From assembly GCA_012519425.1 (NCBI GenBank), contig JAAYQF010000036.1:1-34641 (forward strand): DNA of 34,641 nucleotides, in the 5' to 3' direction. The notes under the pieces were generated by a model, which was not told the origin of the DNA, did not search any database, and saw only the letters and a list, made by a program, of their open reading frames with translations. The position numbers were made by a program, and so were the translations under genes. Origin of the DNA: Bacteroidales bacterium. Its GTDB lineage: Bacteria > Bacteroidota > Bacteroidia > Bacteroidales > Paludibacteraceae. This document shows positions 11,383 to 14,762 of this stretch, piece after piece (position 1 is the stretch's first letter; each line of letters starts with the position of its first letter).

Positions 11383-11628
11383 ATGATCATGCAGAATAAA
11401 ATTGTAAAACTTAAAAGTTACGATCGGGTTGATGAAGCGAAGCTGGATCAGCAAGTGCTTACTGAACATGACATTTCAAGTTCCATTTACGATTCTACAA
11501 GTGCTCAGGTATTACCTATGCTTCAGGACGTTGGTGAAAGTGTTGTAGTTATGGTTTTTGAAAAAGATTATGAAAAGGCTCTGAAGGTGCTGAGTGATTA
11601 TCACCAATATGATGGCGGTGTCTCATAA
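11383..11628 (+). CDS. DUF2007 family protein
   Basis: The 81-residue protein matches the DUF2007 'putative signal transducing protein' family: an N-terminal strand IVKLKSYDRVDEAKLDQQVL, a central SSIYD turn and the strand SVVVMVFEKDYEKALKVL. These are small ferredoxin-like alpha-beta folds whose function is not known. ATG 11389 is an alternative start two codons later. The last codons (GGVS and stop) coincide with the beginning of an interspersed repeat at 11615, so the C-terminus is repeat-derived. It is transcribed alone from a plausible promoter. Confidence 0.8.
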   Translation: MIMQNKIVKLKSYDRVDEAKLDQQVLTEHDISSSIYDSTSAQVLPMLQDVGESVVVMVFEKDYEKALKVLSDYHQYDGGVS

Positions 11629-11678
11629 GTGCCCAACTGCTGTACTTCGACTTTGCTCAGTAACCACGTTGCTTTTGA
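11615..11678 (+). repeat. 64-nt interspersed repeat copy at a stop codon
   Basis: This segment starts GCGGTGTCTCATAAGTGCCC and matches 25437-25500 at 59 of 64 positions; all five differences are C/T transitions. It begins inside the DUF2007 gene and supplies its TAA stop. Only one end of the 160-nt insertion seen at 25436-25595 is present. It includes the ACTTCGACTT-GCTCAG segment that is common in Bacteroidota intergenic repeats. Confidence 0.8.
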
Positions 11679-11721
11679 GATAGCCCATCATCAATATGAT
11701 GTGCAGTTTGTAGTCTTTCTG

Positions 11722-12126
11722 TCAGTATTGTATCTCCCTCAGCGGTATCATCACAAAATCCCTTTCATGCATCAGGGGATGAGGAATTTTTAGTTCGGGC
11801 AAGTCAACGGTCATGTCTCCGTAAAGCAATATGTCGATGTCAATGATCCTGTCTTTATACACACCCTCTTTGGTTTTTTCTGTTCTGCCCATCTTCACCT
11901 CTATGTCTTGAAGTTGATGCAGCAATTCTAAAGGAGCAAGTTGTGTTTCAATTAAAATAACTGCATTTACAAACAGATTGTCAGAAGAAAACCCCACTGG
12001 AGCAGAATAGTAGTAAGTGGATTGGCGTATTACTTTGCCCACTTTTTCAGCTATTTGCTGAATGGCAAAATCGATATTGTGTTCTTTTTTACCTAAATTG
12101 CTACCGAGACCGAGATAGGTTTGCAT
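11722..12126 (-). CDS. folK: 2-amino-4-hydroxy-6-hydroxymethyldihydropteridine pyrophosphokinase
   Basis: The 134-residue HPPK transfers pyrophosphate from ATP to 6-hydroxymethyl-dihydropterin in folate synthesis. Diagnostic segments are YLGLGSNLG at the N-terminus, QSTYYYSAPVGF, FVNAVILIET, and the signature RIIDIDILLYGD with the Mg-binding Asp pair, followed by IPHPLMHERDFV. ATG 12126 was chosen because YLGLGSNLG normally starts within a few residues; upstream in-frame codons add only an AT-rich hydrophobic stretch. It is compact compared with E. coli (159 residues). It is transcribed away from mnmD. Confidence 0.94.
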   Translation of the reverse strand: MQTYLGLGSNLGKKEHNIDFAIQQIAEKVGKVIRQSTYYYSAPVGFSSDNLFVNAVILIETQLAPLELLHQLQDIEVKMGRTEKTKEGVYKDRIIDIDILLYGDMTVDLPELKIPHPLMHERDFVMIPLREIQY

Positions 12127-12147
12127 GATACAGAATGTGTTAAAGCA

Positions 12148-12155
12148 CAAATATA
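12148..12155 (-). promoter_or_regulatory. Putative -7 box for folK
   Basis: Minus-strand TATATTTG matches TAnnTTTG and lies 21 nt before the chosen folK ATG. Its position supports that start rather than the longer frame opened upstream. Confidence 0.5.
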
Positions 12156-12240
12156 ATAAAAATAATGATAAAATGAACTTGAATTGATTTAAATGGTTTA
12201 TCAAGAGCTCCATACGACAAAAAAGTCAAATTACAACTGC

Positions 12241-12912
12241 ATGAAATTAAACCCTCAACAAATTATTCAGACCGAAGACGGTTCTCATTCCGTATTGCAT
12301 TCTGAACTGCACGAAACTTATCATTCCATTCACGGTGCCATACAGGAATCCGAACACACCTTTATTGGTGCCGGCTTGCGGCAGTGTAAGCAGTCATCAT
12401 TGAATATTTTGGAAATCGGCTTCGGAACAGGCTTGAATGCATTTTTGACTCTAGTTGAAACCGAAAAAACCCGACAAAAAGTGTTTTACACGGCTGTCGA
12501 GCTTTACCCAATATCCCCGGAATCTGCTGCTTCATTCAATTATCCTGACCTCATCGCAAAAGATAAAAAGGATATATTTTACCTTTTGCATACCTCCCCG
12601 TGGCAAAAACACATTTCACTGACGAAGAATTTTGACTTAAATAAGATACAGGAAGATTTCACTAAACTTCGCTTGACAGAAATGTACGATTTAATTTACT
12701 TTGATGCTTTCTCACCGGAGAAACAACCCGGCATGTGGACGAGTGAGCGTTTTCAAATGCTGTATGATTGCTGTAATCCCAACGCCATACTGACTACCTA
12801 TTGTGCCAAAGGGGCGGTACGCAGGGCATTGCAGACAGCCGGATTTTCAGTGGAAAGGATTCCCGGTGCAAAAGGTAAAAGAGAAATGCTGCGGGCGAGG
12901 AAGACGACTTAG
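12241..12912 (+). CDS. mnmD: tRNA 5-methylaminomethyl-2-thiouridine methyltransferase, MnmD type
   Basis: The 223-residue protein is a standalone DUF752 methyltransferase, the MnmC2-equivalent domain without the FAD oxidase half. It would methylate 5-aminomethyl-2-thiouridine at tRNA wobble position 34. Motifs are QTEDGSHSVLH near the start, the SAM-binding loop ILEIGFGTGLNAF, YDLIYFDAFSPEKQPGMW, and the C-terminal TYCAKGAVRRALQTAGF with GAKGKREMLR. ATG 12241 begins the family-conserved region; an ATG at 12193 would add 16 unrelated residues. Its TAG stop (12910-12912) is also the first three bases of an 18-nt box shared with another repeat site. Confidence 0.9.
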   Translation: MKLNPQQIIQTEDGSHSVLHSELHETYHSIHGAIQESEHTFIGAGLRQCKQSSLNILEIGFGTGLNAFLTLVETEKTRQKVFYTAVELYPISPESAASFNYPDLIAKDKKDIFYLLHTSPWQKHISLTKNFDLNKIQEDFTKLRLTEMYDLIYFDAFSPEKQPGMWTSERFQMLYDCCNPNAILTTYCAKGAVRRALQTAGFSVERIPGAKGKREMLRARKTT

Positions 12913-13000
12913 GAAAATAGCGGGGTTTTAAAAAGAGGTCCGAGTTCCGGGTTCACGAGGTGCGAGGTCGCGTGTTCCGGATTCATGAGTTTCGAAATAA
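12910..13000 (+). repeat. CNCG-word repeat array after mnmD
   Basis: It starts with TAGGAAAATAGCGGGGTT (12910-12927), an exact inverted match to 3119-3136. After an A-rich spacer comes a GT-rich array (about 12936-13000) of words such as CGAGTTC, CGGGTTC and CGAGGTG, the reverse complement of the AC-rich words elsewhere. The order box, A-rich spacer, array matches the element at 3036-3136, so the two sites are copies of one composite unit. Confidence 0.75.
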
Positions 13001-13022
13001 TCACTGCTGAGCAACTAAAAAA

Positions 13023-13214
13023 TTGTCCGTAGGACAAACATGTGAATAACCCCCGGATTCATCCGGGGTGGAAAGATCAAGAATAGTAATAAAACTCAGT
13101 AAGAGTTTCCCTAAACCCAAATTGTTAAACGCCTACAGCGTTTGAGTAATCATAAACATCCAACTGCCCCCAATTAAAATTGGGGGTTATGCACGTGGAA
13201 CTTCTACGAAGTTC
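13023..13214. repeat. Inverted pair of three-hairpin elements (REP-like)
   Basis: Two copies of about 86-88 nt face each other: 13023-13108 on + and 13214-13127 on -. Each reads: hairpin with GTA loop, AC(A/G)TG, ATAACCCCC, a G/C-flanked hairpin, a short linker containing TGGA, and a third hairpin with GTA in its loop. Stems differ but stay paired: TTGTCC/GGACAA against GAACTTC/GAAGTTC; GGAT/ATCC against AATT/AATT; AAACTC/GAGTTT against AAACGC/GCGTTT. Compensated change argues that structure is retained. This resembles REP or BIME elements moved by REP-associated tyrosine transposases; none is encoded here. Confidence 0.75.
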
Positions 13215-13250
13215 AAATAGTCGCTTCGACGTTGTTCAGCGAGAATAATC

Positions 13251-13460
13251 GACCTCGGCTGGTGAACCGAAAAATAAGTGAGAACAACGTCAAAAATCGT
13301 CCTTGTTTGAGCAACGAAGTTGCGAGTTTGGACGATTTAGTTGTTCGAGCGCTAATTTTTCGAGTGAAGCAGGCGCAGTCTTGACTTTTTTTTGCTTCGG
13401 TCAAGACAAAAAATGAAGAAGAATTAGAAGAAATCGTTTTTTGGTTCAAGCCAAAAAATG
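13251..13460 (+). repeat. Interspersed element with ATCGTCC hairpin and CAAGAC tail
   Basis: This stretch, up to the end of tatC, is homologous to the reverse complement of 25271-25660. Shared blocks are AAAAATAAGTGAGAACA, ATCGTCCTTGTTTGAG, GAGTTTGGACGATTTAG and GCGCTAATTTTTCGAGTGAA, followed by a GTCTTGAC...GTCAAGAC hairpin. AATCGTCC (from about 13304) pairs with GGACGATT, and GCAAC-GAA-GTTGC forms the apex. Predicted reading frames across it are not credible genes. It lies in the 572-nt gap between mnmD and tatC. Confidence 0.75.
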
Positions 13461-13484
13461 AAGGGATGTTTCGAGCCCCACAAA

Positions 13485-14330
13485 TTATTCCGTTTCAGTA
13501 ACATCCTGCACTGTTGTTGCATCCTCTTTATCCTCTTCCTCTTCTTCCTTCTTGGGTTTACAAACCAAAATACTCAATTCATACAACAAATAAAGAGGCA
13601 ATGCTACTACCGACATGGTAAAAGGATCAGTGGTGGGTGTTACCAAAGCTGATAGTATCAGCAAGATCACAAAGGCATATGAACGTACCTTTTTCAACAT
13701 CTGTTTGTTGATCAATCCGGCTTTTGATAACAAATATGCCAAAACGGGCATTTCAAACATAATTCCCAAACTGAAAGTCAGTATATACAAACTGCCCATA
13801 TACGATTGTAAAGCAATCTGGTTGGGAACCAAATCAGATACTTTATAGGTGCCCAAAAATCTTACCGTCAGCGGGAAAATAATAAAATAGCTGACAAGTA
13901 CTCCTAAATAAAATAAGAATGAAGCAGATAAGAAGATAGTACCCACATGTGACTTTTCGTTGGGATATAATGCCGGTCGTACAAACCACCAAATTTCAAG
14001 TAAAATATAAGGTACGATCAAGACTAGTGCGATGCTGAATGAGGAAGTGATGTGTGTCATCAACTGACCGGCGAGATTAATATTGATCAGTTCAATATTA
14101 AAATCTTCCGGACATAAACCCGGAAATTTGAACAATTCAGCTAATCTACAAAGTGAACGATAAAACCAAAAATCCGAGCTTAAGGGTGCAAAAACAATAT
14201 CGTTGAATACAAAATCCCTAAAAGAAAAGATAACTATAACGACTAAAAGTACTGCTATCACTATGCGGATAATGGTCCATCGCAATACCTCTAAATGCTC
14301 CCAGAACGATAAGTTTTTTCCTTCACCCAT
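13485..14330 (-). CDS. tatC: Sec-independent protein translocase TatC
   Basis: The 281-residue membrane protein is the receptor core of the twin-arginine translocase. It has the N-terminal SFWEHLEVLRWTIIR helix (family pattern HLxELR), about six membrane segments, and SFSIALVLIVPYILLEIWWFVRPALYPNEK and KSHVGTIF regions typical of TatC. The C-terminal tail is very acidic (KKEEEEEDKED). An extra loop between the first and second membrane segments is longer than in E. coli, as is usual in Bacteroidota. It is 24 nt downstream of tatA. A likely client in this window is the DUF362 protein at 531. Confidence 0.95.
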   Translation of the reverse strand: MGEGKNLSFWEHLEVLRWTIIRIVIAVLLVVIVIFSFRDFVFNDIVFAPLSSDFWFYRSLCRLAELFKFPGLCPEDFNIELININLAGQLMTHITSSFSIALVLIVPYILLEIWWFVRPALYPNEKSHVGTIFLSASFLFYLGVLVSYFIIFPLTVRFLGTYKVSDLVPNQIALQSYMGSLYILTFSLGIMFEMPVLAYLLSKAGLINKQMLKKVRSYAFVILLILSALVTPTTDPFTMSVVALPLYLLYELSILVCKPKKEEEEEDKEDATTVQDVTETE

Positions 14331-14354
14331 TCTTTTTGGTATAAGACCTGACGC

Positions 14355-14555
14355 CTATTTTTTATCAAGGTCATCCATAGTGGCGTTTATCTCATCATCA
14401 ACTTCTTTCATGCCTTTTTTGAACTGGCTGACACCTTTACCCAAACCACGCATCAGTTCAGGAATTTTCTTACCACCAAAAATTAATAATATTACGAGAG
14501 CAATTAAAATAATTTCTCCGGTACCTAAAGCCCACAAGTAAATCATGTTTAACAT
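14355..14555 (-). CDS. tatA: Sec-independent protein translocase TatA/E
   Basis: The 66-residue protein has one N-terminal membrane helix ([18 protein letters not shown]), then the hinge and amphipathic helix [21 protein letters not shown] charged tail follows. This is the pore-forming TatA type. ATG 14555 is used; ATG 14546, three codons later, is equally possible. It forms a two-gene operon with tatC and no tatB-like gene is seen. Confidence 0.93.
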
Positions 14556-14583
14556 AATACAATGACATTTTAATTTAAGTGTA

Positions 14584-14591
14584 CAAATATA
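14584..14591 (-). promoter_or_regulatory. Putative -7 box for tatAC
   Basis: Minus-strand TATATTTG matches TAnnTTTG, 28 nt before the tatA ATG. No clear -33 element is seen. Confidence 0.45.
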
Positions 14592-14762
14592 CGCTTTTTA
14601 AGTGAATGAAAATGATATGCGACTTTTTTTTAAAAAAACAACAAATCCAATAGCTTTTAAATATTTATGTTGTCGGAGAAAACTCAATTATGTAAAAAGT
14701 ATTTTTGATTGTATTTCAGTAAATATTTACGATATTTGTTAACTCACCAATAAATAATAATT

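Follow-up and report, generated by a model that had tools for sequence, protein, structure and literature searches.

Repetitive extragenic palindromic (REP) sequences are characterised by a canonical GT[AG]G tetranucleotide, 0–2 nt 5′ of a hairpin. They usually number >100 copies per genome, according to the analysis cited here (PMC2817692). Among Y1 (HuH) transposases, or TnpA proteins, subclass 1.2 is identified by the signature Y---Q--HH (PMC6006769). The survey defining this subclass lists its REP status as 'no', and describes its genes as generally lacking the terminal structures typical of IS200 (PMC6006769, Table 1 and section 18). Here, we describe a 192-bp element at positions 13023–13214 of a 34,641-nt stretch of Bacteroidales DNA (Paludibacteraceae; assembly GCA_012519425.1, contig JAAYQF010000036.1), hereafter the window. 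The element is gene-less and, in form, resembles a REPIN (a REP doublet forming hairpins) or a MITE (miniature inverted-repeat transposable element). We put a probability of roughly 0.8 on the following interpretation. The element joins the left and right ends of a Y1-transposase unit into a non-autonomous composite, and a TnpA of the subclass 1.2 type recognises these ends as folded single-stranded DNA (ssDNA).

The element comprises two facing halves, 18 nt apart. The left half spans 86 nt on the forward strand (13023–13108) and the right half, which is inverted, spans 88 nt on the reverse strand (13127–13214). Both have the order hairpin 1, core CAYGTGNATAACCCCC, hairpin 2, linker, hairpin 3, exactly where a prior inspection of the letters alone (the sequence-only reading) had placed them. 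In the left half, hairpin 1 is TTGTCC-GTA-GGACAA, with a 6 bp stem (13023–13037). An exact match to the core, CATGTGAATAACCCCC, occupies 13039–13054 and the inverted repeat CCCCGGAT/ATCCGGGG forms the 8 bp hairpin 2 (13051–13068). Hairpin 3 pairs AAACTC with GAGTTT around A-GTA-A (13092–13108). In the right half, hairpin 1 is GAACTTC-GTA-GAAGTTC, with 7 bp (13198–13214), and the core is again matched exactly by CACGTGCATAACCCCC (13182–13197). Here, hairpin 2 is the 9 bp inverted repeat CCCCCAATT/AATTGGGGG (13167–13186) and hairpin 3 is AAACGCT-GTA-GGCGTTT (13127–13143). Hence, GTA is the loop of hairpins 1 and 3 in both halves. The sequence-only reading had called all stems fully paired. This wording is slightly too strong because left hairpin 3 has an A.A mismatch next to its loop (13098/13102) and right hairpin 3 has one T.G closing pair. 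The spacer between the halves (13109–13126), to which no strand applies, is where the transposase gene sits in the complete units of relatives.

Folded as ssDNA, the left and right halves have z-scores of -4.64 and -4.58, respectively, and none of 200 shuffled sequences was equally stable. The entire element gives a z-score of -5.79. The complements of the halves also fold well (-5.34 and -4.99). Fold energy alone is uninformative about the relevant strand. The bases 5′ of hairpin 1 are AAAAAA on the left and CTATTT on the right. GT[AG]G is absent from this position, and GTA sits in the loops.

Compensated changes in the stems had been taken as a sign of selection on the fold, and covariation statistics bear this out. 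We aligned 21 hand-picked halves (alignment A2), consisting of 11 of the 18 halves from the host and its sister species, G005, and 10 others. Among the halves gathered, seven were excluded for a misplaced hairpin, and others for a length outside 76–96 nt. A larger alignment of 41 halves (A3), in which hairpin 1 is one column off register in several rows, was kept out of all counts. In A2, 96.6% of 468 pair cells are standard pairs, compared with 78.8% in shuffled columns. The former value is inflated by the collection of some halves using hairpin or motif rules. The covariation score was 0.467, versus 0.160 for shuffled columns (0 of 500 as high) and at most 0.108 for slid structures. Two-sided changes occur in 14 of 23 pairs, including all seven pairs of hairpin 1. 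Further pair types did not exceed those in shuffles (22 versus 21.6). Overall, covariation is strong, as expected of a structure under selection.

A covariance model, R1, was built from the A2 halves. The two window halves match it at 7.2e-15 (left) and 2.8e-13 (right), both rows belonging to the training set. Loops were scored in the measurable cases among 134 distinct R1 matches outside the training loci. Hairpin 1 loops were GNA in 83 of 109 cases and TNC in one; for hairpin 3, the numbers were 54 and 2 of 82. The loops therefore have a polarity in these counts, although R1 favours some of the loops in its training set; GAA, the commonest loop, is absent from hairpins 1 and 3 of the training rows. 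In DNA, GNA triloops have unusual stability.

Elsewhere in the genus, weak matches pointed to loci at which a small gene has similarly built halves on one or both sides. This gene encodes a Y1 (HuH) transposase (PF01797, 3.1e-19; NCBIfam IS200, 1.6e-15). For the protein of genome G034, the nearest solved structures are 2a6m, the ISHp608 transposase, and 2vhg, transposase orfA. In G034 the halves bracket the gene, with the sense orientation upstream and the inverted orientation downstream, and they recur beside the Y1 gene of G004. Versions of the gene in G034, G004 and G025 are 79–87% identical over the compared stretches. A complete unit in these relatives consists of three-hairpin modules bracketing a gene for a TnpA of the subclass 1.2 type. 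The limits of such a unit were assessed using locus L147 of G034, where the unit spans 1096–1771. Similarity to the DNA of L153, where the unit lies in different surroundings, extends from 1097 to 1765. Hence, the DNA common to both units reaches no further than the terminal hairpins. The ends are nevertheless unproved because the G034 copies L147, L149 and L150 align some 60–100 nt further outward under loose scoring.

Querying named genomes with the G034 protein identified 92 relatives, the best 80 of which represent 79 distinct loci. The Y---Q--HH signature is present in 75 of the 79 proteins. The strict core TAACCCC flanks the gene on both sides, sense upstream and inverted downstream, at 6 of 11 genes with at least 60% protein identity. 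This compares with 1 of 63 genes below 60% identity and 16 of 2902 control windows. The closest of the 79 loci are a biased sample because the query protein was picked for its element-carrying flanks.

We obtained a broader picture using R1. Of 179 matches across the 79 loci, 16 had E>0.01 and were discarded; the other 163 (E≤0.01) fall in 63 loci. For tests on loci, the 5 training loci were excluded, as were 2–10 loci per test with too little flank, and a module was counted if correctly oriented within 150 nt of the gene. Modules were found upstream at 40 of 72 loci, downstream at 35 of 71, on both sides at 26 of 69 and on at least one side at 46 of 69. The opposite orientation occurred at only 4 loci upstream and 4 downstream. 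Below 60% protein identity, the upstream and downstream counts were 36 of 65 and 31 of 64, respectively. Almost all downstream matches (38 of 41) start 5–28 nt past the stop codon, while upstream modules end 8–139 nt ahead of the start codon. There were also 13 gene-less, head-to-head pairs resembling the window element, with halves 11–41 nt apart, in 9 of the 79 loci. These ends appear to form a family that is widespread in related bacteria. Separately, L114 (3353–4389; G004:C26) has an array of halves with periods of 78 nt and ~294 nt upstream of a Y1 gene. This resembles the REPIN clusters found beside genes for REP-associated tyrosine transposases (RAYTs).

As a control, R1 was applied to 30 other Y1 (PF01797) loci. 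There were 9 matches at E≤0.1, of which 2 reached E≤0.01. These two are at L091 and L111, where both proteins carry Y---Q--HH. The 18 control loci lacking an open reading frame (ORF) with this signature gave no match at E≤0.01. Five control loci, with other Y1 genes of the order (L091, L097, L099, L107 and L111), have GTA-loop hairpins of their own nearby, such as TCCCCGTAGGGGA and GCTTCCGTAGGAAGC, without the ATAACCCCC core. Perhaps these represent further families of ends.

Copies of the element are dispersed in the host. A 231-base query over the element had 15 matches (E≤0.001) across the host draft genome. Using R1, the search for more copies suggested by the sequence-only reading recovered 15 half-units in this 2.4-Mb genome and 12 in G005. 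In both species, one set of stems is common to left halves and another to right halves, with small variations. Hence, the two-part composite has been copied as a whole. We examined 13 copies from the host and sister, and 11 of them lie clear of any ORF of at least 90 aa. Dispersed, extragenic copies and paired, inverted palindromes are features that the element shares with canonical REPs.

In the host, a 94.7% complete draft, neither the PF01797 profile nor a Y1 protein of the G034 type as query detected a Y1 gene. The same searches found none in the G005 draft. Since no such gene was detected in the host, the copy in the window is an orphan, a composite without a gene. The sequence-only reading had suggested a REP/BIME-type element (BIME, bacterial interspersed mosaic element) moved by a Y1 transposase encoded elsewhere. 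Its form, its dispersed copies and the bracketing of Y1 genes in relatives agree with this. The missing GT[AG]G and the three hairpins per half do not, and 'encoded elsewhere' is not borne out by the assembled sequence because the 94.7% complete genome has no detectable Y1 gene. The host transposase may have been lost or left unassembled, and the copies would then be relics or dependent on outside help. Orphan sets are not confined to the host. Draft genomes with halves and no match to the G034-type protein are G000 (the host; 15 halves), G005 (12), G007 (18), G030 (6) and G032 (18). Other Y1 genes are present in G007 and G030, and none in G032. Overall, halves occur in 36 of 48 genomes of the genus, with a maximum of 59 per genome (E≤0.001, strict filters).

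The persistence of these orphan sets would also be expected of a domesticated chromosomal element that has lost its mobility and serves the host, for example as a binding site for a protein or for gyrase (a role proposed for REPs). We think this very improbable, given that 15 halves are few for a 2.4-Mb genome and that the one compared site is empty in the sister. Domestication is compatible with a composite of transposon ends, and both can hold together. A viral source was also considered. The core pattern occurs in 26 viral stretches, none of which shows the three-hairpin module by eye, and a distant-mode search of plasmids and phages returned no match to the element.

That the host and sister retain copies without a detectable Y1 gene, and that copies are located among other repeats, might instead indicate an ordinary MITE. 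Such an element would be moved by another transposase, of the DDE type for example, with Y1 genes as passengers between its ends. This seems hardly likely to us. MITEs of DDE transposases have matching terminal inverted repeats and a target-site duplication. Here, the terminal hairpins have different sequences (TTGTCC versus GAACTTC), and thus the ends do not match as terminal repeats. In addition, the orientation of the module, and its short distance from the Y1 gene, recur across many genera.

In the window, the element lies outside two convergent genes. These encode an mnmD-like methyltransferase (12193–12912, forward strand; PF05430) and tatC (13485–14330, reverse strand; PF00902), and are 572 nt apart (12913–13484). 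In G005 the same genes, also convergent, overlap by 4 nt; the element is absent and nothing lies between them. The host may have gained the element, or G005 may have lost it. Other genomes matching both genes have the two on different contigs. Flank comparisons for 9 copies from the host and 4 from the sister yielded only matches of 28–192 nt, and no second empty site was found. For sister copy L067, bases 1–362 matched the end of host contig C136, with all remaining matches at repeats or element copies. Likewise, host copy L003 matched the sister at repeats and element copies only.

The arrangement of these genes bears on whether the module acts as RNA. It might be a leader or trailer controlling the transposase transcript or, in the window, a structured 3′ RNA of mnmD or tatC, as the sequence-only reading had offered as an alternative. 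In IS200 leaders, structured RNA controls the transposase transcript. The stems of the module would pair as RNA as well as DNA, and upstream modules end at distances of 8–139 nt from the start codon. Conversely, the module is also found downstream of the gene, in inverted orientation, and in pairs lacking a gene. A 3′ RNA of mnmD or tatC also fits poorly with the overlapping genes of G005, with nothing between them, and with the other copies, which are at other places. Furthermore, Rfam 15 covariance models gave no match to 11500–14700 at E≤1. We therefore judge a role as RNA improbable.

Two other repeats occupy this gap. Imperfect direct repeats of a 25-nt unit, with 15 nt spacing, lie to the left of the element (12941–12995). 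A second structured repeat fills the remainder (13248–13418; z-score -3.89 over 13225–13425) and has no Rfam match. Its relatives, of ~180 bp, give dozens of matches each in the host and sister and are also found in other genomes of the genus. The first bases of host contigs C61, C71, C110, C116 and C122 lie within this second repeat. Hence, it is a probable cause of assembly breaks and of hidden sequence, in which mobile genes may be included.

If the element is a composite of Y1-transposase ends, its mechanism may resemble that in work on IS200/IS605 and REP systems (PMC6006769, PMC8266576, PMC3116915). Briefly, the transposase would bind the hairpins as folded ssDNA. The loops, mostly GNA, and the core would be read on one strand and provide strand specificity, with the stems needing only to pair. 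Cutting would be expected at or near hairpin 1. The ends could then be moved in trans whether or not they enclose a gene, in line with the proposal made for REPINs.

Several observations weigh against a composite of this kind. First, association with the gene is incomplete. Outside training, 23 of 69 loci have no correctly oriented module within 150 nt at E≤0.01, and 69 of the 163 matches are in other parts of the flanks, >150 nt away from the gene. Similarity between the upstream and inverted downstream flanks of one locus exceeds the 99% level of mixed loci in 15 of 74 cases, but in only 2 of 11 in the closest group. Second, the protein signature and the module do not coincide fully. Of the 30 control loci, 12 have a Y---Q--HH ORF and just 2 of these have an R1 match at E≤0.01; hence, not every Y---Q--HH gene has the module. 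Control loci L093, L102 and L105 lack the signature, yet match R1 with E-values of 0.019–0.054. The strict core is absent from all 30 control PF01797 loci, several of which have other GTA-loop hairpins. Third, neither the host nor the sister has a detectable Y1 gene. Across the genus, halves are only modestly enriched in genomes with a near Y1 gene (E≤1e-35), being present in 19 of 21 such genomes versus 17 of 27 without, with medians of 9 versus 3 (p 0.044 and 0.031; the cut-off was set after viewing the data and the relatedness of the 48 genomes was ignored). Finally, movement of the element is itself deduced; excision, insertion and cutting were not observed. Copies within the host are 78–94% alike, compared with 78–96% between species, so there is no sign of a recent spread or burst. 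Only one sister-species locus was comparable, and gain and loss are indistinguishable there, the host gap also holding another repeat.

A wider generalisation is one we lean towards, though only slightly. Subclass 1.2 Y1 proteins would be the transposases of a Bacteroidota-wide family with inverted three-hairpin ends, read mainly via GNA triloops in ssDNA. The gene-less composites would then be a separate kind of REPIN, with their own recognition code and able to outlast the transposase. If true, this supplies the missing DNA partner for a transposase subclass left without one by its defining survey, and makes subclass 1.2 chemistry testable with short oligonucleotides. It also adds a structurally different form of REP-like mobility, with three hairpins and no GTAG guide. 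This would bear on the origin of the guide tetranucleotide in IS200/IS605 and REP systems, and on how repeats persist without a transposase.

How does the element compare with known systems? It is most like REPIN/BIME sequences and their RAYT (TnpA-REP) proteins. In the descriptions cited, these are also inverted pairs of palindromes, mostly intergenic, flanking Y1 genes in some genomes and gene-less elsewhere (PMC2817692, PMC3116915, PMC8266576). In both cases, stem sequences vary while pairing is kept. However, a REP is described as one hairpin whose 5′ foot carries GT[AG]G, whereas each half here has three hairpins and no GT[AG]G before hairpin 1. Unlike in REPs, the conserved bases are the loops and the core between hairpins. 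Copy number is also below the REP standard, at 15 halves in the host and at most 59 in genomes of the genus. Hence, the three-hairpin ends work like a REPIN but lack its GT[AG]G and copy-number features.

Similarities with the other Y1 groups are summarised from the relevant entries of one survey (PMC6006769). IS200/IS605 elements, with TnpA of subclass 1.1, likewise have a HuH/Y1 gene between hairpin-bearing ends. Subclass 1.1 is listed with a Y[IV]ENQ motif and many near-identical copies per genome; here, the motif is Y---Q--HH and, unlike in IS200/IS605, the two ends are inverted relative to each other. Subclass 2.6, mostly from Bacteroidetes, and class 3, both listed with 'atypical secondary structures', also comprise Y1 genes with palindromic flanks and no GT[AG]G foot. 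They have different motifs, YIH[QN]NP and YV[VI][AENY]EQ, respectively. Subclass 1.2 is given as proteins of ~150 aa from Bacteroidetes and is also delimited by its C-terminal domain and its position in the protein tree; Y---Q--HH is found in 75 of the 79 relatives. Among titles and abstract openings in open-licence PubMed Central, preprints excluded, we found no later description of terminal structures for this subclass. Unlike the subclass as published, many such genes here have inverted three-hairpin ends. The presence of the module beside 46 of 69 genes runs counter to the published description of subclass 1.2.
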